A stretch of 56,368 nucleotides of DNA from an uncultured Bacteroides sp. (GTDB lineage Bacteria > Bacteroidota > Bacteroidia > Bacteroidales > Bacteroidaceae). The position numbers and the translations under genes are program-made. Shown piece after piece: positions 7,378 to 16,168 of the stretch. The notes below the pieces were generated by a model. It saw only the letters and a program-made list of their open reading frames with translations. It was not told the DNA's origin and made no database searches. Each line of letters begins with the position of its first letter. Within the stretch, counting starts at the first letter, position 1. The stretch lies in contig CANSEY010000028.1 in the NCBI GenBank assembly GCA_947646015.1, forward strand, positions 1-56,368, in the 5' to 3' direction.

Positions 7378-7795
7378 TTTTATTCTTATTTTTCTTTTTC
7401 CGTTTCAGGTTCACTTCAAAGGAGAAGAAGAACCACGTTTCATATATCAGATACAACAGATAGAACGAGATAAACGTCAGCAAGAAAGCCTTGGCTTCTT
7501 CGCGTACTGCCAGACAATAAATCAGCAGCAGAATCAGCGAGAGAATCATTTTTATCATCTTCATTGCCAGATACAGCAGCGACAACTTCTGCGGAGCATG
7601 CCGCCGACACGCATCGAACATATAAATACTAAACAAACCGAAGATATAGAAATATACCGGTATAAACGGATATCCTCCGAAATAATGCCCCGGCAAGGCT
7701 ATGTGTAAAATCACTGCTCCCGCTGCTCCGCTTAGTATAGCAAACAGCGTATTCAGTGCGATAAAATTCCGTTTAGTCTTACTAATGTTCACCAT
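7361..7795 (-). CDS. Four-helix membrane protein in the AtpI position of the atp operon
   Basis: A 144-aa membrane protein with about four hydrophobic segments (near residues 11-32, 42-60, 78-98 and 103-125) and a very Lys/Asn-rich cytoplasmic tail (KRKKKNKNKNE). It lies between atpC and atpB and overlaps atpB by 17 bp, so it is co-translated with the a subunit. Position and topology resemble AtpI/UncI, the accessory protein that helps c-ring assembly, or the small AtpQ/R proteins of N-ATPase operons. I cannot see clear sequence similarity to either. A function in Fo assembly is inference from context. Confidence 0.8.
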   Translation of the reverse strand: MVNISKTKRNFIALNTLFAILSGAAGAVILHIALPGHYFGGYPFIPVYFYIFGLFSIYMFDACRRHAPQKLSLLYLAMKMIKMILSLILLLIYCLAVREEAKAFLLTFISFYLLYLIYETWFFFSFEVNLKRKKKNKNKNETVA

Positions 7796-7837
7796 GTCGT
7801 TGTGTTTTTCTGCTGTATATTATCCATCTCGTCTTCC

Positions 7838-8086
7838 TTACGAGACACACACCGAAGCTGTCCCGTCACTCATTTCAACAAAACCACCCTGAATATCCAA
7901 TGTATGCTCCTCGCCGTCCATCGTGGTATAACCCAACGTTCCCGCTTTCAATGACGAGACGATCGGCGCGTGTCCCGGCAGGATAGAAAACGATCCTACC
8001 GTTCCCGGCAGTGTGACAATCTTCACTTCTCCGTCGAATACGCTCTTTTCGGGCGATACGATACTTAAATGCAATTCTTTCATCAT
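7838..8086 (-). CDS. atpC: F1Fo-ATP synthase epsilon subunit, short form
   Basis: The 82-aa protein contains only the N-terminal beta-sandwich domain of epsilon (LSIVSPEKSVFDGEV, GSFSILPGHAPIVSSLKAG). The usual C-terminal pair of helices (about 50 residues) that inhibits ATP hydrolysis is absent; the ORF simply ends after GTASVCVS. The fold kept here is the part that binds gamma and the c-ring. Start could be either of two adjacent ATGs (8086 or 8083). It follows atpD by 15 bp. Short epsilon subunits are, to my knowledge, usual in Bacteroides. Confidence 0.92.
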   Translation of the reverse strand: MMKELHLSIVSPEKSVFDGEVKIVTLPGTVGSFSILPGHAPIVSSLKAGTLGYTTMDGEEHTLDIQGGFVEMSDGTASVCVS

Positions 8087-8101
8087 GGAATGTTGTTTCG
8101 A

Positions 8102-9628
<1,527 letters not shown>

Positions 9629-9789
9629 TTATTTATATTATTCTTTCTTTACCTATCGAATTTTAGTAGCATGACAAGGAACGTTTCGCGTTTTATCTAC
9701 TTTAATCTACTATAGTAAACAGTTAAATTTAGCTTTTGTTCAATCATGCCCGATTTCTTTTTAACAAAATAGTTAAATAAACAACCGCG

Positions 9790-9797
9790 CAAATGTA
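9790..9797 (-). promoter_or_regulatory. Putative -7 box for the atp operon
   Basis: Minus-strand TACATTTG matches the Bacteroides primary sigma -7 consensus TAnnTTTG exactly. No clear -33 TTTG lies at the right distance, and the implied leader before atpD is about 165 nt. Assigned by match and position only. Confidence 0.45.
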
Positions 9798-10094
9798 GAA
9801 ACAAATTAGCATCGTTGTTCTTCCTTTTTCATTATTTGTCGTTCAATAACACTTGTTAGGCCAACAAAGACTACAAACAGACCAATATCGGAACATTCCA
9901 ATTACGATTGTATAGTAAAACAAGCCTGTTAATTATAAAATATCATTAAAACTATGACTTAACATCAAGTTTTCCCATTCAACGGTAATATTCAAACACT
10001 TAAACGAGTGATAAAATAGTAGCATATGCAACTAGTTTTATATCCGGGCACGTACATCCTATTAAACACTCCCCATTTGCCTGAAGCGGAAAAG

Positions 10095-10129
10095 TTTTCG
10101 GCAAGAAAATTATAAATTCCTTAATTTTG
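10095..10129 (+). promoter_or_regulatory. Putative promoter for the 136-aa unknown gene
   Basis: TTTTCGG (10095-10101, -33-like) and TAATTTTG (10122-10129, -7) are spaced 20 bp, as in Bacteroides promoters. Transcription would start near 10137 and give a leader of over 100 nt that includes a 23-codon frame. Confidence 0.5.
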
Positions 10130-10241
10130 CCACTTTGTTAAATGTCAGCAGAAAAAATAAGAAGCAAAAAACACTCTTCTGATAAAAAAAGAAGAAATTT
10201 GCTGCATTATTAATCCTAAAAATTATGGTAAAAAAAACCTT

Positions 10242-10652
10242 TTGGCTTTTGCCGAAAAAATCGGCAACTTTACGTTAAACGTAACAATGGTAGACAAAGC
10301 AGGCAATCCGTTGACAGTAGATGATATATCTCAATGTCACCTACCCGGATTCCCCATCTTATTTACTCAAAATGAATTACTTGAAATCCTTGCAAAAGAG
10401 ATTTTCAAGCAACAGTTTCTTTGGAAATCCGTACAGGATAAAGACATCAAAGAGTGCAACAAAGAAGAACGGATCATCAAGCAGATACCGCTGATGCCAC
10501 GCTGTCCGGATGTACTGAAAGGGCTGTTCCATTGCATCGAAATCCGCGACGAACGCTCTCCGAAGCATGCCATAGCCTATAAAAGCTGTCTGGGAAAACT
10601 GGAGGAGATGGTGAAAGACCAATGGGACGATTGGAACAGAAATCAGTCCTAA
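10242..10652 (+). CDS. Unknown protein at the head of the VirE_N cassette
   Basis: I do not recognise this protein. The open frame gives 136 aa from a TTG at 10242, or 121 aa from the first in-frame ATG at 10287 (MVDKAGNPLTVDDIS), which I consider at least as likely. It is soluble, charged, without signal peptide or membrane helices, with several Cys (CHLPGF, ECNKEE, PRCPD, FHCIE, SCLGK) not arranged as an obvious metal site. It ends with an acidic/aromatic tail (DQWDDWNRNQS). An ATG at 10225 opens a different frame and stops after 17 codons, so the start is ambiguous. It is followed after 51 bp by a separate promoter and the VirE_N/DUF3987 gene. Function unknown. Confidence 0.65.
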   Translation: MAFAEKIGNFTLNVTMVDKAGNPLTVDDISQCHLPGFPILFTQNELLEILAKEIFKQQFLWKSVQDKDIKECNKEERIIKQIPLMPRCPDVLKGLFHCIEIRDERSPKHAIAYKSCLGKLEEMVKDQWDDWNRNQS

Positions 10653-10659
10653 TAATCGA

Positions 10660-10690
10660 TTTGGTAAAAAAAGAGAAGTTCCTACCTTCG
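10660..10690 (+). promoter_or_regulatory. Promoter for the VirE_N/DUF3987 gene
   Basis: TTTG at 10660-10663 and TACCTTCG at 10683-10690 are separated by exactly 19 bp, matching the Bacteroides -33/-7 arrangement with one substitution. Predicted start near 10697 argues against the GTG at 10704 and for an ATG at 10752 or 10764. Confidence 0.6.
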
Positions 10691-10751
10691 CAGCCGGAAG
10701 CCCGTGATAACTACACCACCCGCTTCCGGCAACTTATATATTATATTTCAA

Positions 10752-13127
10752 ATGAGAAAGCACATGTACCAAGTGTCACTATTTATCAACACTTGGAGTA
10801 AAACTCCCACGACTATAACTTTTGAAGATTTTTTCGCAATGGTACGCAACGGACATTGGAAAGTGCCTACGGAAGGCCACCGCAGCTGTCTGGCAAAAGA
10901 CCGCAAACACGACGCGCAAACCATCAAAGACAGCATGGCATGTGTCATCCCCGCAGGCATATGCAAGAATGGACACGCAAAAAACAACCTTACCTCCCTG
11001 TCACTCGCACTCTGCATCGACATCGACCATACGGACGAACAGACAAAGGATATTTTCGTACGTGCCTGCCTGCTCGAATACGTACTGGGAGCGTTTATCA
11101 GCATCTCCGGCCGTGGTGTTAAGTTGTTCATTCGTATAGATATCGATGGAGTAAACGATTATCCTGCCATTTATGAAGCGACGGCAAAGCTCGTTTCCAC
11201 CGTTCTCGGCGTAGAGAACGACGGGAAATGCAAGGATATCACCCATCCCTGCTTCGGATCATACGACCCGGACGCATACTACAACGGTGACGCAAAGGCC
11301 GTCAACGACTTTCTGCCGAACGGTGCACTCACTCCGCGCGTCACCTACGCTCCCGTCACTTCCGCTCCCCGCACCACCTGCACTCCCACCTCTTTCTCCA
11401 ACGGACATCCGCCTGCGATGCCGGGTAACCGGATTTCCGCCGCTCCCTTCGTACAGTCCTACCTCACCCTCTACCCTGCCGCAACGGGCGACCGGAACGG
11501 AACCGTTTTCCGGCTCAGCTGCGCTGCCTGCAAACGCGGCATCGACCGTAACGAACTGACCACCGAATTGGTTCGCACCTTGGAAGAAGACAACTTCCGT
11601 GAGCCCGAAATCGCACGTACTGTAAAATCAGCTTACCAGAATGTAATGACTGCGGCAGAGACGGAAAGCTTCGAAAATCCTCCTTCAAATTCCAGTAAAG
11701 TCCAAAAGTCCGTTATAGGATTTTCAGAAAACGAAAATCCGGCAGAAAAGGAGGATGAAATCATCGGAGAAGAGCTCAGAGAGCAGACTCCGACCTTTCC
11801 TGACGAAATTTACGATCTCATTCCCGCCATCTTCAAGGAGTGCGTCTCCATCGCAAGAGACGAGCGTGAAAGGGACGGACTCTTGTTGTCATGTATTACC
11901 ACGATAAGCAGCATGCTCCCCAGTGTAAGCATCCGCTACAACCGACGGAATTATCAGCCCAATATCTACTGTATCGTCGTAGCTTCCTCCGGTGCCAACA
12001 AGAACCTCATCGGCTATGGCATACGCCTGCACAAGCACTATTGTGAGTATTGGGAGAAGCAGAGTCTGAAGATCGAAAAGGAATACAAGAAAGCACTCAG
12101 GGACTACACCCTCTCCTTGCAGGCGATACGCAAAAAGAATACTGCCGCCACCAACCTGCCGGACGAACCGGAGGAGCCGAAGCTGGCATTTCCGCTGATC
12201 CCTGCCGACATCAGCCGTGCACAGCTCATCACTCACCTCATCAACAACCAAAGTTGTTCTTCCTTGCTCACCAGTACCGAAGCCAGCAGCGTCAGCACAG
12301 CCCGCAACCAAGATTACGGACACTTCGACGATATCCTCTGCAAGGCATTCGAGCACGAACTGATCAGTTCGTCCTACAAGATCAACGGACGACATCCGCT
12401 GAAAGTGGAATATCCCTCCCTGTCGGCTTTTCTCACCGGCACTCCATCCAGCCTCATTTTATTCATCCCGACCATGGAGACAGGGCTGTACAACCGCTTT
12501 CTGATCAATACCTTCAGACTTCCGGCAGCATGGCAGGATGTGTTCGCGGAGGAAAAGGTGCGGGCGGACGATCTCTTCAACGAGTTGTCCATGCGCTTCG
12601 CACAGATGGCATTGTTTCTGAAAGATTCTCCTACGGAAGTAAAGCTGACAGATACACAGAAAAAAGAATTCAACCGGGTATTCACGCAACTGCTCAAAGA
12701 TACGGACCAGTTAGGTAATGATGACCTGCTGGGGGTGGTGAAACGTTATGGAGTGATAACGGCACGCATCTGCTGCATTTTCTCCGCCATCGACAAGGGA
12801 ACCATGAGAATGGAAACACCCGAAGTATACTGCTCGGACGCACATTTCAAAGCAGCGCTCGCCATCGTGCTGTGTTGCTTCGAACATAGCAAACTGGTCA
12901 GTACTTCGGTAAAAAGCTCTGCCGAAGATACGAAACCATTACAATCGCCCGATAATCTCTCGCGACTTCTGACGAAACTCAAAAAGAGTTTTTCAGCCAA
13001 AGAAGCATGTGCTTTGGGAGAGGAATTGAACCTCTCAAGAAGCACCGTTTACTACTTATTGAATAAAGGCATTAAAGCAGGGAGAATCAGCAAGTTAGGT
13101 CACGGTTCGTATATTCTGAAAATCTAA
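10752..13127 (+). CDS. BT4734/VirE_N-like and DUF3987 domain protein
   Basis: This 791-aa protein belongs to the BT4734/BF3469 family common in Bacteroides. The N-terminal part (about residues 40-200) is the VirE_N-like domain (SLALCIDIDHTD, SGRGVKLFIRID), whose pattern of acidic and Arg/Lys residues resembles archaeo-eukaryotic primase folds. The region from about 340 to 720 is DUF3987. Its P-loop position reads VVASSGANKNLIG, lacking the normal GK[ST], so ATP binding is doubtful. The C-terminus (about 750-790) looks like a winged helix (ELNLSRSTVYYLLNKG, GRISKLGHGSYIL). A role on DNA or in replication initiation is inferred from the fold. Neighbours are HU, amidase and smalltalk genes. The upstream GTG at 10704 is rejected because it lies only about 7 nt from the predicted transcription start. 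Confidence 0.85.
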   Translation: MRKHMYQVSLFINTWSKTPTTITFEDFFAMVRNGHWKVPTEGHRSCLAKDRKHDAQTIKDSMACVIPAGICKNGHAKNNLTSLSLALCIDIDHTDEQTKDIFVRACLLEYVLGAFISISGRGVKLFIRIDIDGVNDYPAIYEATAKLVSTVLGVENDGKCKDITHPCFGSYDPDAYYNGDAKAVNDFLPNGALTPRVTYAPVTSAPRTTCTPTSFSNGHPPAMPGNRISAAPFVQSYLTLYPAATGDRNGTVFRLSCAACKRGIDRNELTTELVRTLEEDNFREPEIARTVKSAYQNVMTAAETESFENPPSNSSKVQKSVIGFSENENPAEKEDEIIGEELREQTPTFPDEIYDLIPAIFKECVSIARDERERDGLLLSCITTISSMLPSVSIRYNRRNYQPNIYCIVVASSGANKNLIGYGIRLHKHYCEYWEKQSLKIEKEYKKALRDYTLSLQAIRKKNTAATNLPDEPEEPKLAFPLIPADISRAQLITHLINNQSCSSLLTSTEASSVSTARNQDYGHFDDILCKAFEHELISSSYKINGRHPLKVEYPSLSAFLTGTPSSLILFIPTMETGLYNRFLINTFRLPAAWQDVFAEEKVRADDLFNELSMRFAQMALFLKDSPTEVKLTDTQKKEFNRVFTQLLKDTDQLGNDDLLGVVKRYGVITARICCIFSAIDKGTMRMETPEVYCSDAHFKAALAIVLCCFEHSKLVSTSVKSSAEDTKPLQSPDNLSRLLTKLKKSFSAKEACALGEELNLSRSTVYYLLNKGIKAGRISKLGHGSYILKI

Positions 13128-13210
13128 TATGGACTTTCTGGACTTTACTGGACTTTGAAAGGGGAAATTCGTGACTTTTACTTCATTGTCACAAGAAAAA
13201 AACAATAAGT

Positions 13211-13292
13211 CTTATTAGCATATCGAAATTAGCTATTAGCAAAAACAAATTAGCTAATAGCTAATCGAAATATGCTAATAGCTAATTTGTTT
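13211..13292. repeat. TAGCTAAT palindromic repeat cluster
   Basis: This stretch is built from overlapping copies of TTAGCTAATAG and its reverse complement. The main inverted repeat has arms at 13244-13260 and 13276-13292 (AACAAATTAGCTAATAG against CTAATAGCTAATTTGTT, one mismatch). A further copy lies at 13211-13240. The same core (TAGCTAATCGRAATATG) recurs near 38834-38851. It lies downstream of the DUF3987 gene and may terminate transcription. Confidence 0.65.
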
Positions 13293-13320
13293 CTTCCTTA
13301 CAGACGGACGACTTATCAAG

Positions 13321-13389
13321 AAACAGATTCACGACTCATCGAAAAACAGATTCACGGCTCATCGAGAAACAGATTCACGGCTCATCGAG
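13321..13389. repeat. Three 23-bp tandem repeats
   Basis: The unit AAACAGATTCACGRCTCATCG plus two bases is repeated head to tail at 13321-13343, 13344-13366 and 13367-13389, with one or two substitutions. A partial fourth unit (AAACTTCACG) follows. The last unit runs into the 3' end of the DUF4248 gene (stop at 13375). Confidence 0.85.
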
Positions 13390-13620
13390 AAACTTCACGA
13401 TCAGCCTCACCTGTCTGCTGCTATAAGCATGATCGTTTTTTCCTTCTCCACCGCTATACATAGCGTCATAAAGTTCTTTATTATTTCTGATCCATCCCCG
13501 TAGTTTCTGCATGGCATAAATCAATGGCAAATGTGGATTGTACTTGTGAGCCAGCTCCGACTTCAAATACGGACGGATGACAAACGGTTCTTCTTCCGCT
13601 TCTTCTTTTTCTGTTTTCAT
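13375..13620 (-). CDS. DUF4248 family protein
   Basis: An 81-aa protein with the family core FVIRPYLKSELAHKYNP followed by AMQKLRGWIRNNKEL, which looks like a small helix-turn-helix (resembling a MerR/Xis-type fold). The N-terminus is acidic (MKTEKEEAEEEP). DUF4248 genes regularly sit divergently between the DUF3987 and HU genes of this cassette type, which matches the layout here. A role as DNA-binding regulator of the cassette is inference. Its C-terminal codons overlap a 23-bp tandem repeat. It reads away from HU, leaving a 278-bp control region with iterated AAGTACG motifs. Confidence 0.8.
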   Translation of the reverse strand: MKTEKEEAEEEPFVIRPYLKSELAHKYNPHLPLIYAMQKLRGWIRNNKELYDAMYSGGEGKNDHAYSSRQVRLIVKFLDEP

Positions 13621-13641
13621 ATCGTTGTTTTTAAGTTCTTT

Positions 13642-13759
13642 CGTACTTCAAATATACTAAAACATATTTGCGCACACAAGCAAACAAGTAAAATAAAATC
13701 AATCAGAAAGAAAGTAAATACATTCTGAAAGAAAGTACGACGAAGTACGATAAAGTACG
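13642..13759. promoter_or_regulatory. AAGTACG iterons in the DUF4248/HU control region
   Basis: AAGTACG occurs at 13733-13739, 13743-13749 and 13753-13759, an exact 10-bp period, so all copies face the same side of the helix. A related AAGTAAA lies 21 bp upstream of the first (13712-13718), and an inverted copy (CGTACTT) lies at 13642-13648 beside the DUF4248 -7 box. This looks like a multi-site operator. Confidence 0.6.
13649..13656 (-). promoter_or_regulatory. Putative -7 box for DUF4248
   Basis: Minus-strand TATATTTG matches TAnnTTTG and lies 29 bp before the ATG. A CTTG 21 bp upstream (13678-13681) could serve as -33. Confidence 0.45.
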
Positions 13760-13783
13760 TATTCTCATAGCTTAATAATAGGC

Positions 13784-13791
13784 TACCTTTG
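13784..13791 (+). promoter_or_regulatory. Putative -7 box for the HU-amidase-smalltalk operon
   Basis: TACCTTTG is an exact TAnnTTTG match, about 108 bp before the HU start. The three AAGTACG iterons end 24 bp upstream of it, so a bound protein would cover the -33 region. Confidence 0.5.
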
Positions 13792-13898
13792 ACACATCGA
13801 AAGAAAGAAACAGAGCTCATTCTCTCTCCCGACACTGATCGAGTGACAGCAATCAGTAATTATTAATTTATATTTTTCTAAATCTTTAATTTATCATC

Positions 13899-14408
13899 AT
13901 GGCAATACCATTTAAAAGAATGGGTCGTAAAGACCCGCGAAAAATTGACGGGGTGCTGAAGTACCACCCCCAACTGGTGACGATGGGACAAAGTGTAGAC
14001 CTTGACGGCATCGCCTACATCATGAAGGACAAGAGTTCCCTCTCCCTGGGCGACATCCAAAGCGTACTGACCAACTATGTGGAGGCAATGCGAGCGGCGC
14101 TCTTCGACGGAAAATCGGTCAATATCAGAGACTTCGGTGTATTCAGCCTATCCGCCCATACGCTGGGAGCAACCACGAAAGAAGAGTGTACGGTGAAGAA
14201 TATCAAATCTATACAGATCAACTTCCGCCCTTCCAGCAGCGTCCGCCCCAACCTGACGTCTACCCGTGCCGGCGACAAGATCGAGTTTCTCGACCTCGAA
14301 GCCCCGAAAAAGAAGAAAGGCGACGGATCAGGAGAGGACAACAACCCCGGTGGCGGTGGAAACGAAGGCGGCGGAGGCGACGAGGAAGCTCCGGACCCGA
14401 CAGTGTAA
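13899..14408 (+). CDS. HU-like DNA-binding protein with acidic Gly-rich tail
   Basis: The 169-aa protein has an HU/IHF-type domain over about residues 1-125 of the Bacteroidetes HU-HIG kind: VDLDGIAYIMKDKSSLSLGDIQSVL, then SVNIRDFGVFSLSAHT and NFRPSSSVRP, where the last resembles the HU arm. A low-complexity tail (about 130-169) follows, rich in Lys, then Gly and Asp/Glu. Such proteins bend or coat DNA. The gene starts a plus-strand operon with the amidase and smalltalk genes. The tail differs from the short chromosomal HU and may mediate protein contacts, which is inference. Confidence 0.88.
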   Translation: MAIPFKRMGRKDPRKIDGVLKYHPQLVTMGQSVDLDGIAYIMKDKSSLSLGDIQSVLTNYVEAMRAALFDGKSVNIRDFGVFSLSAHTLGATTKEECTVKNIKSIQINFRPSSSVRPNLTSTRAGDKIEFLDLEAPKKKKGDGSGEDNNPGGGGNEGGGGDEEAPDPTV

Positions 14409-14472
14409 GAAGTGGAGAGTTGAGAGTTGGTAATCAATGTACGAGGGGTTGATAGTTAGAATTAATGGCTTT

Positions 14473-14922
14473 ATGAGGAAGATTCATTTAATTGTGATTC
14501 ACTGTTCTGCAACGCGGGCAGACAAGGAGTTGACGGCTTTTGATCTGGATACGATGCACCGTCGGCGGGGATTTAACGGGACAGGTTATCATTACTATAT
14601 CCGCAAGGATGGAACAACGCATCTTACCCGTCCGGTGGAACGGATCGGGGCACATGCGAAAGGTTTTAATGCGGAGAGTATCGGAATTTGCTACGAAGGC
14701 GGCCTGGACTGCCGGGGACGCCCGGCGGACACACGGACACCGGAACAGCGGGCAGCGCTCCGGCTGCTGGTGCATCAGTTGCAAGAGAGATTCCCCGGTT
14801 GCCGGGTGTGCGGTCATCGCGACTTGTCGCCGGATCGCAATGGGAACGGTGAGATTGAGCCGGAGGAGTGGATCAAGGCGTGCCCGTGCTTTGAGGTAAA
14901 GGAGGAAAGTTATCGGGAGTAA
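14473..14922 (+). CDS. N-acetylmuramoyl-L-alanine amidase (T7-lysozyme type)
   Basis: The 149-aa protein is a stand-alone Amidase_2 domain that cleaves the bond between muramic acid and the stem peptide. Zinc ligands are visible by family pattern: His in LIVIHCSATR near residue 9, His in CGHRDLSPDRNG near residue 116, and Cys in KACPCFEV near residue 138. No signal peptide is seen, as in phage endolysins that need a holin. I chose the ATG at 14473 (MRKIHLIVIHC) because the family starts directly at this strand; an ATG at 14437 would add 12 atypical residues. It lies between the HU gene and the smalltalk peptide. Confidence 0.92.
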   Translation: MRKIHLIVIHCSATRADKELTAFDLDTMHRRRGFNGTGYHYYIRKDGTTHLTRPVERIGAHAKGFNAESIGICYEGGLDCRGRPADTRTPEQRAALRLLVHQLQERFPGCRVCGHRDLSPDRNGNGEIEPEEWIKACPCFEVKEESYRE

Positions 14923-14972
14923 TCGATCATTCGGTAATGATTCACTTAGTAATCAATCATATAAAGAGTCGG

Positions 14973-14982
14973 AAAGGAGGTG
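14973..14982 (+). promoter_or_regulatory. Perfect Shine-Dalgarno of the smalltalk gene
   Basis: AAAGGAGGTG is fully complementary to the 16S anti-Shine-Dalgarno core and ends 9 nt before the ATG at 14992. Most genes here have no such site, as is normal for Bacteroidia, so this one stands out. Confidence 0.7.
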
Positions 14983-14991
14983 TGTAGAGTT

Positions 14992-15093
14992 ATGGCAGTC
15001 AAGAGATCCCTTTGGGATACCATTTTGAAAGTAGTCATCGCGGTGGCTTCGGCAGTGCTGGGTATTGTAGGCGGTAATGCGATGAGTCTGTAA
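14992..15093 (+). CDS. Smalltalk family small membrane peptide
   Basis: A 33-residue peptide starting MAVKRSLWDTILKVV and continuing with a single hydrophobic helix (AVASAVLGIVGG) to NAMSL. Length, charged start and one membrane helix match the smalltalk family that accompanies HU and amidase genes in Bacteroides. It is preceded by a perfect Shine-Dalgarno and followed by a strong terminator. A single-helix peptide beside a signal-less amidase recalls a holin-endolysin pair, but no function is established that I know of. It is shorter than usual annotation cut-offs. Confidence 0.85.
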   Translation: MAVKRSLWDTILKVVIAVASAVLGIVGGNAMSL

Positions 15094-15122
15094 GATCAGA
15101 GAAATAACAATTTCATAAACGT

Positions 15123-15164
15123 GAGAGAGAGGATGCAGGTTCAGACTTCTGTCCTCTCTCTTTA
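15123..15164 (+). terminator. Intrinsic terminator of the HU-amidase-smalltalk operon
   Basis: GAGAGAGGA (15123-15131) pairs with TCCTCTCTC (15152-15160), followed by TTTATTTA. The position right after the smalltalk stop marks the end of the cassette operon. Confidence 0.8.
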
Positions 15165-15223
15165 TTTATAAATCTAAGTACAGTATAAACGTTGATATTC
15201 TTCCTAGAAAGAAGGAGTTATCA

Positions 15224-16168
15224 TCAGAAGTAGTAGCGCAGCCCACCCAGCAGGTTAAAGCGGGTGATTCCACAACGTTCGTCTTCTTTCAGCAGCATCC
15301 AGTCCTGTTTGGGCATACTTCCACCGATCCCGTTCAGAGTCAAGCCGAGTCCCCAATTAGATGAAAGCATGTACTCAAATCCTAATGTGGCATGAAGGCC
15401 GAATCCGGCAGCATTGTAGAAAGGATCATGATAAAGGAAAACGCCGACACCAACGCCTGATTTTAAGATCCATCTGTCAAATTTTGTACGGCTTACCCAC
15501 TCCGGAGCTATATAGGAGAACATCATATCGCCACCGGAGAATGACTTCTTGAAACCAGCATATTGAAGTCCGATTCCCATCCCACCGTTCCAGACATGTT
15601 CGTAAGCGAGCTTCCATTCAACTCCTCCTTTCGAATCTAACGCCCTACCGTTGATATCATAAATCTTGCTGATCACCCATCCATATCCGAAGCTCGCTTC
15701 AAACGTGTTGGCAGGCGCTTTTCTGCTTTCTGCATAGTCTTTAGCAATAACCAGGTCGAGATCTATTACGTCTTGTACAGGATTTGTTTTCAGTGTATCC
15801 ACACTTTTATCCGACAACCGCAGCATCAGTCCGGAAATCTGATGACAGGAACTTCCCCAAAAAGAAGGTTTCTGGTGATTAGTGATGGCGAGTCCATTGC
15901 CACCAATCTTTCCTGTAGCCTCTTGTGCAAGATGTAATACCTGATCATAACGGCAATTCGTAGAAGTACCCCGATCCACTACTGATACACGCCCGATAGT
16001 CTCGGCTGTATTGGGCACTTTTTCTCCCAAACCGATGACATAGACCGAATCTGCCGGAATAATATCCGGATAGGTTCTTACAATGTTAGTGACCACTTTA
16101 GGTGAACAGGAAGTCAGTAATAGCATAGCAGTAGCTGCCAATAGTTTAGTCTTTTTCATGTTTTTCAT
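15224..16168 (-). CDS. Outer-membrane-associated lipoprotein of unknown function
   Basis: The 314-aa protein has a lipoprotein signal peptide (LLLTSC, Cys at residue 21). The part up to about residue 150 is a small alpha/beta domain (VYVIGLGEKVPNTAETIG, HLAQEATGKIGGNGLAITNH) reminiscent of YbjQ/DUF-type lipoprotein domains. From about residue 155 to the end it becomes beta-barrel-like, with alternating aromatic and Gly residues and a C-terminal Phe (LGGLRYYF), the usual signal for outer-membrane insertion. A lipoprotein fused to a small barrel is unusual. It lies 89 bp after purT and may be read from it or on its own. Function not recognised. Confidence 0.7.
   Translation of the reverse strand: MKNMKKTKLLAATAMLLLTSCSPKVVTNIVRTYPDIIPADSVYVIGLGEKVPNTAETIGRVSVVDRGTSTNCRYDQVLHLAQEATGKIGGNGLAITNHQKPSFWGSSCHQISGLMLRLSDKSVDTLKTNPVQDVIDLDLVIAKDYAESRKAPANTFEASFGYGWVISKIYDINGRALDSKGGVEWKLAYEHVWNGGMGIGLQYAGFKKSFSGGDMMFSYIAPEWVSRTKFDRWILKSGVGVGVFLYHDPFYNAAGFGLHATLGFEYMLSSNWGLGLTLNGIGGSMPKQDWMLLKEDERCGITRFNLLGGLRYYF

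Follow-up and report, generated by a model that had tools for sequence, protein, structure and literature searches.

The DNA analysed here, called the window, is a 56,368-nucleotide stretch of an uncultured Bacteroides, contig C28 of a draft genome that is 74.7% complete and close to Bacteroides faecis. Its subject is a cassette at positions 10242-15170 that holds six genes, repeat arrays and a strong terminator. We know of no function assigned in Bacteroides to this set of VirE_N/DUF3987, DUF4248, HU, amidase and smalltalk genes. The largest gene of the cassette, encoding a primase-helicase, carries two mutually inverted blocks of short tandem words, one within the sequence for a disordered linker and the other at the stop codon, and the same arrangement recurs in many related primase genes. 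The genes of the cassette and the two blocks (arms A and B) are as follows.

10242..10652, + strand: open reading frame (ORF) of 136 aa (121 aa from ATG 10287), no known family, a lineage-specific passenger
10704..13127, + strand: primase-helicase, with BT4734-like primase, PriCT-1, disordered linker, MCM-like AAA+ (DUF3987) and C-terminal winged helix (AlphaFold model and PDB comparison)
11684..11729, + strand: arm A, the first half of the inverted repeat pair, inside the gene where the disordered linker is encoded
13114..13159, - strand: arm B, the second, inverted half, spanning the stop codon, with three AAAGTCCA words on the - strand
13375..13620, - strand: DUF4248 protein, 81 aa, divergent from HU; model mostly helical
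13899..14408, + strand: HU-HIG protein (family matches) with an acidic Gly-rich tail (from sequence)
14437..14922, + strand: T7-lysozyme-type amidase, likely start ATG 14473; signal peptide not evident by reading
14992..15093, + strand: smalltalk (DUF6486) single-helix peptide, 33 aa (family matches)

The listed ORF starts look too early; by reading, the likely starts are ATG 10287 for the 136-aa ORF, ATG 10752 or 10764 for the primase, 14473 for the amidase and 14992 for smalltalk. To judge from domain matches, the product of the large gene is an archaeo-eukaryotic-type primase joined to PriCT-1, a predicted MCM-like AAA+ domain and a C-terminal winged helix, with an activity that is likewise predicted. 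BT4734-like_N (E 6.7e-34; 117.3 bits in Pfam, above the cut-off of 22.4), PriCT_1 (4.9e-18) and DUF3987 (4.7e-67) all match it, and D85 and D87 of its motif I, given as hhhDhD/E for archaeo-eukaryotic primases (PMC5862659), are invariant in 14 aligned sequences. The linker is predicted to be disordered, with pLDDT below 50 at residues 298-338 of the AlphaFold model. The P-loop, at about residue 412 of the model, reads GANKN in the window primase; in most other primases of the alignment this loop is GxGKG- or GGGKG-like, and the lysine is kept. HU-HIG (PF18291; 7.9e-18, and 65.1 bits in Pfam, above the cut-off of 26.2) and HU_rel (2.5e-21) match the HU protein, the DUF4248 family matches on the minus strand at 9.7e-20, the smalltalk model NF033879 matches at 4.8e-13, and the amidase matches Amidase_2 (1.7e-17), the phrog_822 lysis amidase (1.1e-52) and T7 lysozyme (1.2e-22). 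All genes named in the original prediction, together with the terminator, are present by family match and by terminator fold, and its description of the amidase as an endolysin-type enzyme without a signal peptide agrees with the T7-lysozyme-type matches, the signal peptide being judged by reading alone. A helix-turn-helix regulator was considered for DUF4248 and rejected, as sequence and fold searches gave nothing convincing and no known fold was found. In Porphyromonas gingivalis, deletion of a DUF4248 gene is followed by hyperpigmentation and oxidative-stress tolerance, and the flanking genes there differ from those of the cassette (PMC6231650).

The cassette is kept under purifying selection and is not decaying, since dN/dS against B. 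faecis is between 0.04 and 0.42 (136-aa ORF 0.19, primase 0.14, DUF4248 0.06, HU 0.04, amidase 0.07, and smalltalk 0.42 over 37 codons from an upstream GTG). The 136-aa gene, which had been suggested to belong to the set, is a local passenger and not a core part, because it is present in just 3 of 99 Bacteroides genomes, the source genome included, each time adjoining the cassette at the same chromosomal locus between atpD and a gene called OMP. Profiles made from the window genes were run over the fetched loci, and 34 of 64 non-redundant fused primases (primases of fused length, more than 10% apart in protein sequence) are accompanied in the fetched stretch by one or more partner genes, namely DUF4248 in 33, HU in 30, the amidase in 29 and smalltalk in 24; some loci reach contig ends (for example L055 and L067), and absences of partner genes are therefore upper bounds. 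DUF4248, HU and the amidase occur together in 27 of the 34, so that the recurrent co-occurrence claimed for the set holds and gene order is conserved. Among these 27, 11 have the order primase, HU, smalltalk/amidase, DUF4248, and 9 the order primase, reversed DUF4248, HU, amidase/smalltalk; in 4 DUF4248 has the same direction and 3 show other orders.

Tandem-repeat scans revealed short repeats inside many of these primase genes and inverted copies just behind the stop codons. A direct search found an inverted-block pair in many such genes, with matches of about 14-48 nt lying about 1.4 kb apart, one block in the linker-coding stretch and the other at the stop codon, each with short tandem words. 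The arm pair of the window scores 19, against a maximum of 13 in 200 dinucleotide shuffles. A pair with a score of at least 14 is present in 32 of the 64 fused primases and in 0 of 162 control ORFs (at least 500 codons, same stretches), for which the maximum score is 13; the threshold was set after the primase scores and before the control scores were known. The first block ends 1355-1449 nt ahead of the stop in 34 of 34 genes, and the second starts between 44 nt before and 36 nt behind the stop, again in 34 of 34 (a set slightly different from the 64). No comparable third copy was found in the fetched stretch of the 19 modules examined. Pairs also occur outside Bacteroides, in uncultured Bacteroidales and other Bacteroidetes (L124, L126, L129 and L135), with TTTGCAAA-like words, and the pairless primases L127, L079 and L045 retain eroded words. 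The list of features in the original prediction contained neither the arm pair 11684-11729/13114-13159 nor the 21- and 23-bp arrays at about 13213-13393. The new observation is thus two mirrored blocks 1.4 kb apart in the initiator gene, and no description of paired blocks was found in titles and the starts of abstracts, subscription papers lying outside that search.

The tandem words can be written as NNNNCA, in which the four variable letters differ among modules and match between the two blocks of one module (AGGACA, ACGACA, CTGCCA, GGTCCA, GGGTCA, CTCTCA, AGTCCA and others). Across 33 modules, a block has three words in 21, two in 8 and four in 4. Word spacing is similar among modules of one group, the usual distances being 8 and 8-9, 9 and 7, or 11-13 and 6 nt, and the window shows 10 and 8. 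Because the distances are mostly not multiples of three, the words stand in more than one reading frame in 28 of the 33 modules. What is conserved at arm A, within the stretch coding for the disordered linker, is by its lettering the DNA and not the protein frame. Agreement between the two blocks is 493/570 in the words, 162/241 in the spacers, 364/594 on the inner side and 165/586 (about chance) in the outer flank, and since the words were picked by eye and the blocks found by similarity, only this ranking is meaningful. In some relatives the blocks also change together. L099 and L107, with proteins 86% identical, show the same change in both arms at two positions, one of them in the third word, and one change confined to arm A. 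Between L059 and L099, 9 positions have changed identically in both arms and none differently in both, beside 4 changes confined to A and 5 to B. Other pairs of modules, such as L053 and L060 with 7 changes in A only, differ mostly in one arm. Over 183 highly redundant pairs, with poorly alignable ones skipped, 456 changes are joint and identical, 229 joint and different, 801 in A only and 550 in B only, a count that serves for examples only. An inverted partner word behind the last word has on average 2.06 mismatches against 2.46 in shuffled sequence (33 modules), being clear in some modules and hardly above shuffled overall.

Because a replication-type protein is combined with module-private words that lie in its gene, within the linker-coding stretch and at the end, an initiator with its own binding sites is suggested. 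Hence, we propose with modest confidence, inferring binding and replication from sequence features, that the cassette is a replicon module embedded in the chromosome, whose origin and/or initiator-binding site is bipartite and private to the module. Its core would be a self-contained initiator in which an archaeo-eukaryotic primase (AEP)-type domain is fused to PriCT-1, an MCM-like AAA+ helicase and a winged helix. This initiator probably recognises the NNNNCA words in the two inverted blocks of its own gene, and the two blocks together may act as a bipartite origin and/or an autoregulatory site. Each module would have word letters of its own, much as each plasmid incompatibility group has its own iterons, and the inverted placement would permit one priming or loading site per strand. 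HU, as a DNA-organising protein, and smalltalk, as a small membrane peptide, may work jointly, with DUF4248 as a putative small accessory factor and the T7-lysozyme-like amidase as a possible optional lysis or envelope part. Replicon-specific tandem words by the initiator gene, as at iteron-type origins, were found in half of the fused primases, the window included.

Several known systems resemble parts of this arrangement. In phage lambda, the iterons lie in the part of the initiator gene O that encodes a flexible linker; the cassette sites are similarly placed, but lambda has one block, whereas the cassette has two inverted ones, the second at the stop. In plasmid RSF1010, the ssi sites are inverted and close together, unlike the distant halves of the cassette, and the functions fused in the cassette protein reside in three separate proteins. 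As in the cassette proposal, primase start structures there adjoin iterons (ssiA/ssiB with RepB'; PMC4234260), and RepB' (3h20) is a weak structural match to the cassette primase in the PDB comparison (E 0.043). The pRN1 initiator ORF904 likewise joins an AEP primase, a helicase and a winged helix in one protein, and an essential element just behind its gene is kept in structure and poorly conserved in sequence (PMC4234260), so that the letters vary among relatives as in the cassettes. However, the pRN1 element is a local stem-loop of 100 nt, whereas the cassette halves are 1.4 kb apart, one of them intragenic and each with tandem words, and the cassette helicase is of the MCM-like DUF3987 type in contrast to the superfamily 3 helicase of pRN1. 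A phage satellite initiator of another family also has iterons (PMC7145576).

A number of observations weigh against the replicon proposal. Half of the fused primases (32 of 64) have no pair at the threshold, including 8 of the 34 with partner genes, and both the choice of words and their register come from inspection by eye. Similarity between the arms extends past the words (61% on the inner side), which simple binding sites do not need. In an association of protein segments with the word over all 595 pairs, residues 681-689 come out best (0.387) and the recognition helix is fifth (0.25), so that this association does not settle which segment reads the word; among close pairs the word is associated, indirectly, with PriCT-1 and the recognition helix, and this does not hold over all pairs. 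The shorter primase gene L158, outside the 64, scored 15 at a different place, which is taken as chance, and chance scores above 13 do occur. Arrays of 18-25 bp behind the primase, tried as a general origin feature, occur in 8 of 34 modules, against 1 of 30 partnerless fused primases and 4 of 151 controls, an enrichment that falls short of a general feature. Among relatives outside Bacteroides, the pair of L170 scores only 12, and L135 has a pair and no readable integrase in its stretch. The window module itself has no integrase among the Pfam families of the cassette genes, nor any match to three integrase seeds within 9 kb, and no extrachromosomal form, excision or replication was seen.

The proposal can be extended, tentatively and with a chance of being right well below even, to a dispersed family of Bacteroides chromosomal replicons whose private origin code is written twice, mirrored, in the initiator gene. 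The blocks would change together with the domain that reads them, allowing coexistence without cross-talk, and on a trigger, perhaps phage infection, the modules might fire as local origins or escape in the form of satellites; HU and smalltalk would keep the newly made DNA at the membrane, and the amidase would set it free. If the origin is real, dominant gut bacteria would harbour hidden replicons or satellites in these modules, and the layout of paired blocks inside a gene would be a new origin architecture. The DNA word of each module makes the function of the cassette experimentally testable.

Relatives with signs of mobility would place the module close to satellites. Three of the four relatives examined outside Bacteroides carry an integrase, and two of those also have restriction or BREX genes: L126 has the pair, a tyrosine integrase and an HTH_17 protein, L129 the pair, a tyrosine integrase and three parts of a type I restriction system, and L170, an IMG/VR contig, an integrase, HTH_17 and BREX genes with the pair at its usual place. 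The Bacteroides cassettes mostly have no integrase nearby, L048, L078 and L168 having one in the fetched stretch. Phage satellites of the PICMI type are outlined by an integrase, an AlpA-type regulator and a DUF3987 primase (PMC10803314), an outline that L126 and L170 resemble. The window module shares the DUF3987-type primase with PICMI; in contrast, it has no integrase or AlpA, and it has HU, DUF4248, smalltalk and the amidase. Among viral contigs, 4 relatives were found in 153 pattern matches in IMG/VR, and 'phage' records of the MT83xxxx series with module parts are UNVERIFIED faecal scaffolds and were not accepted as phage evidence. Polysaccharide-gene seeds match within 9 kb in 26 of 65 listed loci, and in 20 of the 22 loci with the layout primase-HU-smalltalk-amidase-DUF4248; some of the 65 rows are one locus under several names, and the identification of the export and glycosyltransferase seeds comes from reading their sequences, the UpxY/NusG-type seed alone being confirmed by Pfam. 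The best reading is that the module is akin to satellite-like islands and retained in chromosomes, in many cases next to polysaccharide genes. The view of the original prediction, a domesticated phage or satellite module with DNA-handling parts, thus stands as far as the primase and HU families and the primase shared with integrase-bearing islands are concerned, and falls short in its lysis pairing. In PMC10434189, cassette-type genes appear in expression tables only, and to judge from the locus numbers there B. thetaiotaomicron VPI-5482 may have a cassette at its atp locus as well.

The alternative that survives best, though we consider it unlikely, is a host defence module in which primase and HU recognise or copy invading DNA and the cassette is kept for immunity and not for its own replication. 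The expanded HU proteins of Bacteroidetes have reportedly been proposed to pre-empt invasive elements. Two PADLOC models, for CRISPR-associated PrimPol (1.5e-31) and for the VirE-PriCT protein of a reverse-transcriptase defence system (1.3e-21), match the primase domain, and two relatives carry restriction or BREX cargo. However, the homology is limited to the primase domain, such cargo shows that islands carry defence and not that their primase engine is one, and private paired words are left unexplained. The CAPP_B CRISPR primase-polymerases (PMC8211822) have a VirE_N catalytic domain and occur in Bacteroidetes, as does the cassette primase, whereas the cassette has no Cas gene, its helicase is fused and the match to the NCBI model reaches 49 bits against a cut-off of 200. 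PD-(D/E)XK proteins (PDDEXK_2 seed; Pfam) were found in or near modules in 8 of 65 rows, duplicates included, and PADLOC gave no match for them.

Less probable still is a domesticated lysis module, in which a DNA-level trigger frees the amidase and a holin-like smalltalk and thereby kills the cell (abortive infection) or remodels the envelope. In its favour, the T7-lysozyme-like amidase shares 50-55% identity with proteins annotated as endolysins in Bacteroides phages and shows no evident signal peptide, and smalltalk is a short hydrophobic helix that precedes the amidase in one group of modules. Of 87 smalltalk hits in 19 genomes, 41 lie within 1.5 kb of an Amidase_2 match, all 41 on the amidase strand; the count omits one hit of 88 (G024), below the family cut-off and with an amidase match within 1.5 kb. 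However, this leaves 46 loci without an amidase match at that distance, and smalltalk was re-found in 39 of the 40 that were fetched, with HU on the same strand within 800 nt in 28; in L203 and L217 smalltalk overlaps HU by 4 nt. The six unfetched loci are two in the source genome, where HU is known, two at contig ends and two in G022, L193 has amidase fragments by profile, and L229 has HU with smalltalk not re-found. No HU lies within 800 nt in 11 of the 39 re-found loci, some of them near contig ends. Amidase-bearing modules also exist without a profile-detected smalltalk (L044, L048 and L083). The HU count in the 19-genome tally is at least 22 and was used for the source genome only, the list being complete there: each of its 5 smalltalk hits has HU no more than 1.5 kb away, and 2 of the 5 have an amidase at that distance. 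As HU adjoins 28 of 39 amidase-less smalltalk genes and all five of the source genome, it is a frequent smalltalk partner independent of the amidase, and the question of smalltalk is redirected from the amidase to HU. The membrane peptide is hence not specifically linked to the endolysin, and the holin-endolysin pair postulated in the original prediction as the core of the set is weakened by the smalltalk-HU linkage. Since contigs C1, C9 and C11 of the source genome carry HU-smalltalk pairs with no DUF3987 or Amidase_2 match on the same contig stretch, the pair looks like a smaller unit of its own. Because the amidase looks like a cytoplasmic endolysin-type enzyme, an optional lysis part, as the replicon proposal has it, is plausible. 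The amidase belongs to the sequence family of T7 lysozyme (match over residues 17-134) and differs from it, by reading, in an extra EF-hand-like acidic loop (DRNGNGEIEPEEW) that precedes the C-terminal KACPC motif (amidase taken as 14473-14922; Pfam EF-hand matches are below cut-off).

The arms themselves could be recombination sites, between which the 1.4-kb helicase segment inverts, giving phase variation of the primase, or is exchanged. Perfect inverted matches of up to 48 nt (L056) would suit this, and the joint changes between L059 and L099 are such as arm conversion or crossing over would give. However, no side-by-side opposite-strand matches to N- and C-terminal primase parts occur among the matches listed, no recombinase family is found among the cassette genes, the inverted state would merely truncate the protein and the word grammar is left unexplained, making this quite improbable. 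Pairing of arms A and B in the messenger, as a control of translation or decay of the primase transcript, is the least probable reading. In its favour, the transcript contains the two arms as complementary stretches, of which one frequently overlaps or adjoins the stop codon; but transitions between arms show no wobble bias (45 G-U-compatible against 60 incompatible in 33 modules), and pairing needs no tandem words, which are better kept than the spacers.

The cassette is flanked by two genes on the minus strand.

8102-9625, - strand: ATP synthase beta gene (atpD), left neighbour of the cassette
15224-16168, - strand: gene called OMP, right neighbour; barrel match weak and sub-cut-off

The nearest cassette copies have primases 93% identical in B. 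faecis MAJ27 and 98-99% identical in uncultured Bacteroides. With one genome sampled per species, atpD and OMP are still near each other in B. congonensis and in genome G012, and the intervening DNA differs, with an integrase, a VapC-like protein and surface proteins in one genome and fimbria-like genes in the other, all named by reading the sequence. Similarity of the window to these two genomes ends at about 10040 and restarts at about 15216-15223. Because they hold other DNA between atpD and OMP, the cassette occupies a variable chromosomal site, in line with the variable insertion sites that the original prediction had proposed to look for. Neither a clean empty site nor a target duplication could be made out in these two comparable genomes, and an atpD match is absent from seven other fetched stretches (L180, L182-L187). 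The window contains no RNA family above gathering score and no tRNA.

Further repeats and signals lie in the intergenic parts of the cassette.

13213..13292, no strand assigned: partly palindromic repeats of 21 bp, TATTAGC type; B. faecis (L042) has a similar array
13300..13393, no strand assigned: 3.7 tandem copies of a 23-bp unit
13732..13791, + strand: three repeats of AAAGTACGAC type ahead of HU, with a TAnnTTTG box after them
15123..15168, + strand: intrinsic terminator, fold -21.3 kcal/mol, z -3.76

The 23-bp array is a variable element, as it is not listed for B. faecis L042. Behind the primase of L041, a 98%-identical relative, there is an extra 32-bp array of 3.7 copies (8093-8212), and because it is not listed for the window, the intergenic stretch behind the primase turns over fast. 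TAnnTTTG is the promoter consensus of Bacteroides. Six such boxes occur in 9700-15300, three of them fronting the 136-aa gene, HU and (reversed) DUF4248; over L002, 4 boxes were found against 2.2 expected, which is near chance. A simple terminator scan with loops of up to 8 did not list the terminator at 15123-15168 and gave 3 sites against 6.0 in shuffles. The claim that the cassette has its own promoters and a strong terminator is therefore borne out by the fold for the terminator and is weaker for the promoters. The intergenic region between DUF4248 and HU contains GTAC-containing words, with three AAAGTACG-type copies (13732-13791) ahead of the HU promoter box and an inverted GTAC-containing word at 13645-13656 in front of DUF4248. 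Unlike that of the arm words, this layout is operator-like in appearance.

Other word arrays are found in related primase genes. The primase gene of L123 (Bacteroides ilei) has several GGTACC-centred repeats spanning the stop codon, a different-looking word array at the same place. L078 has, at 7458-9557, a BT4734-type primase gene with GATGTAGGGG repeats at its end; an inverted set follows about 70 nt after the stop codon, and an integrase is nearby. L079, the same locus as L137 (B. gallinarum), carries arrays inside the module at 12661-14064 and 10513-10975, with a 49-bp unit in about 29 copies and a 44-bp unit in about 10.

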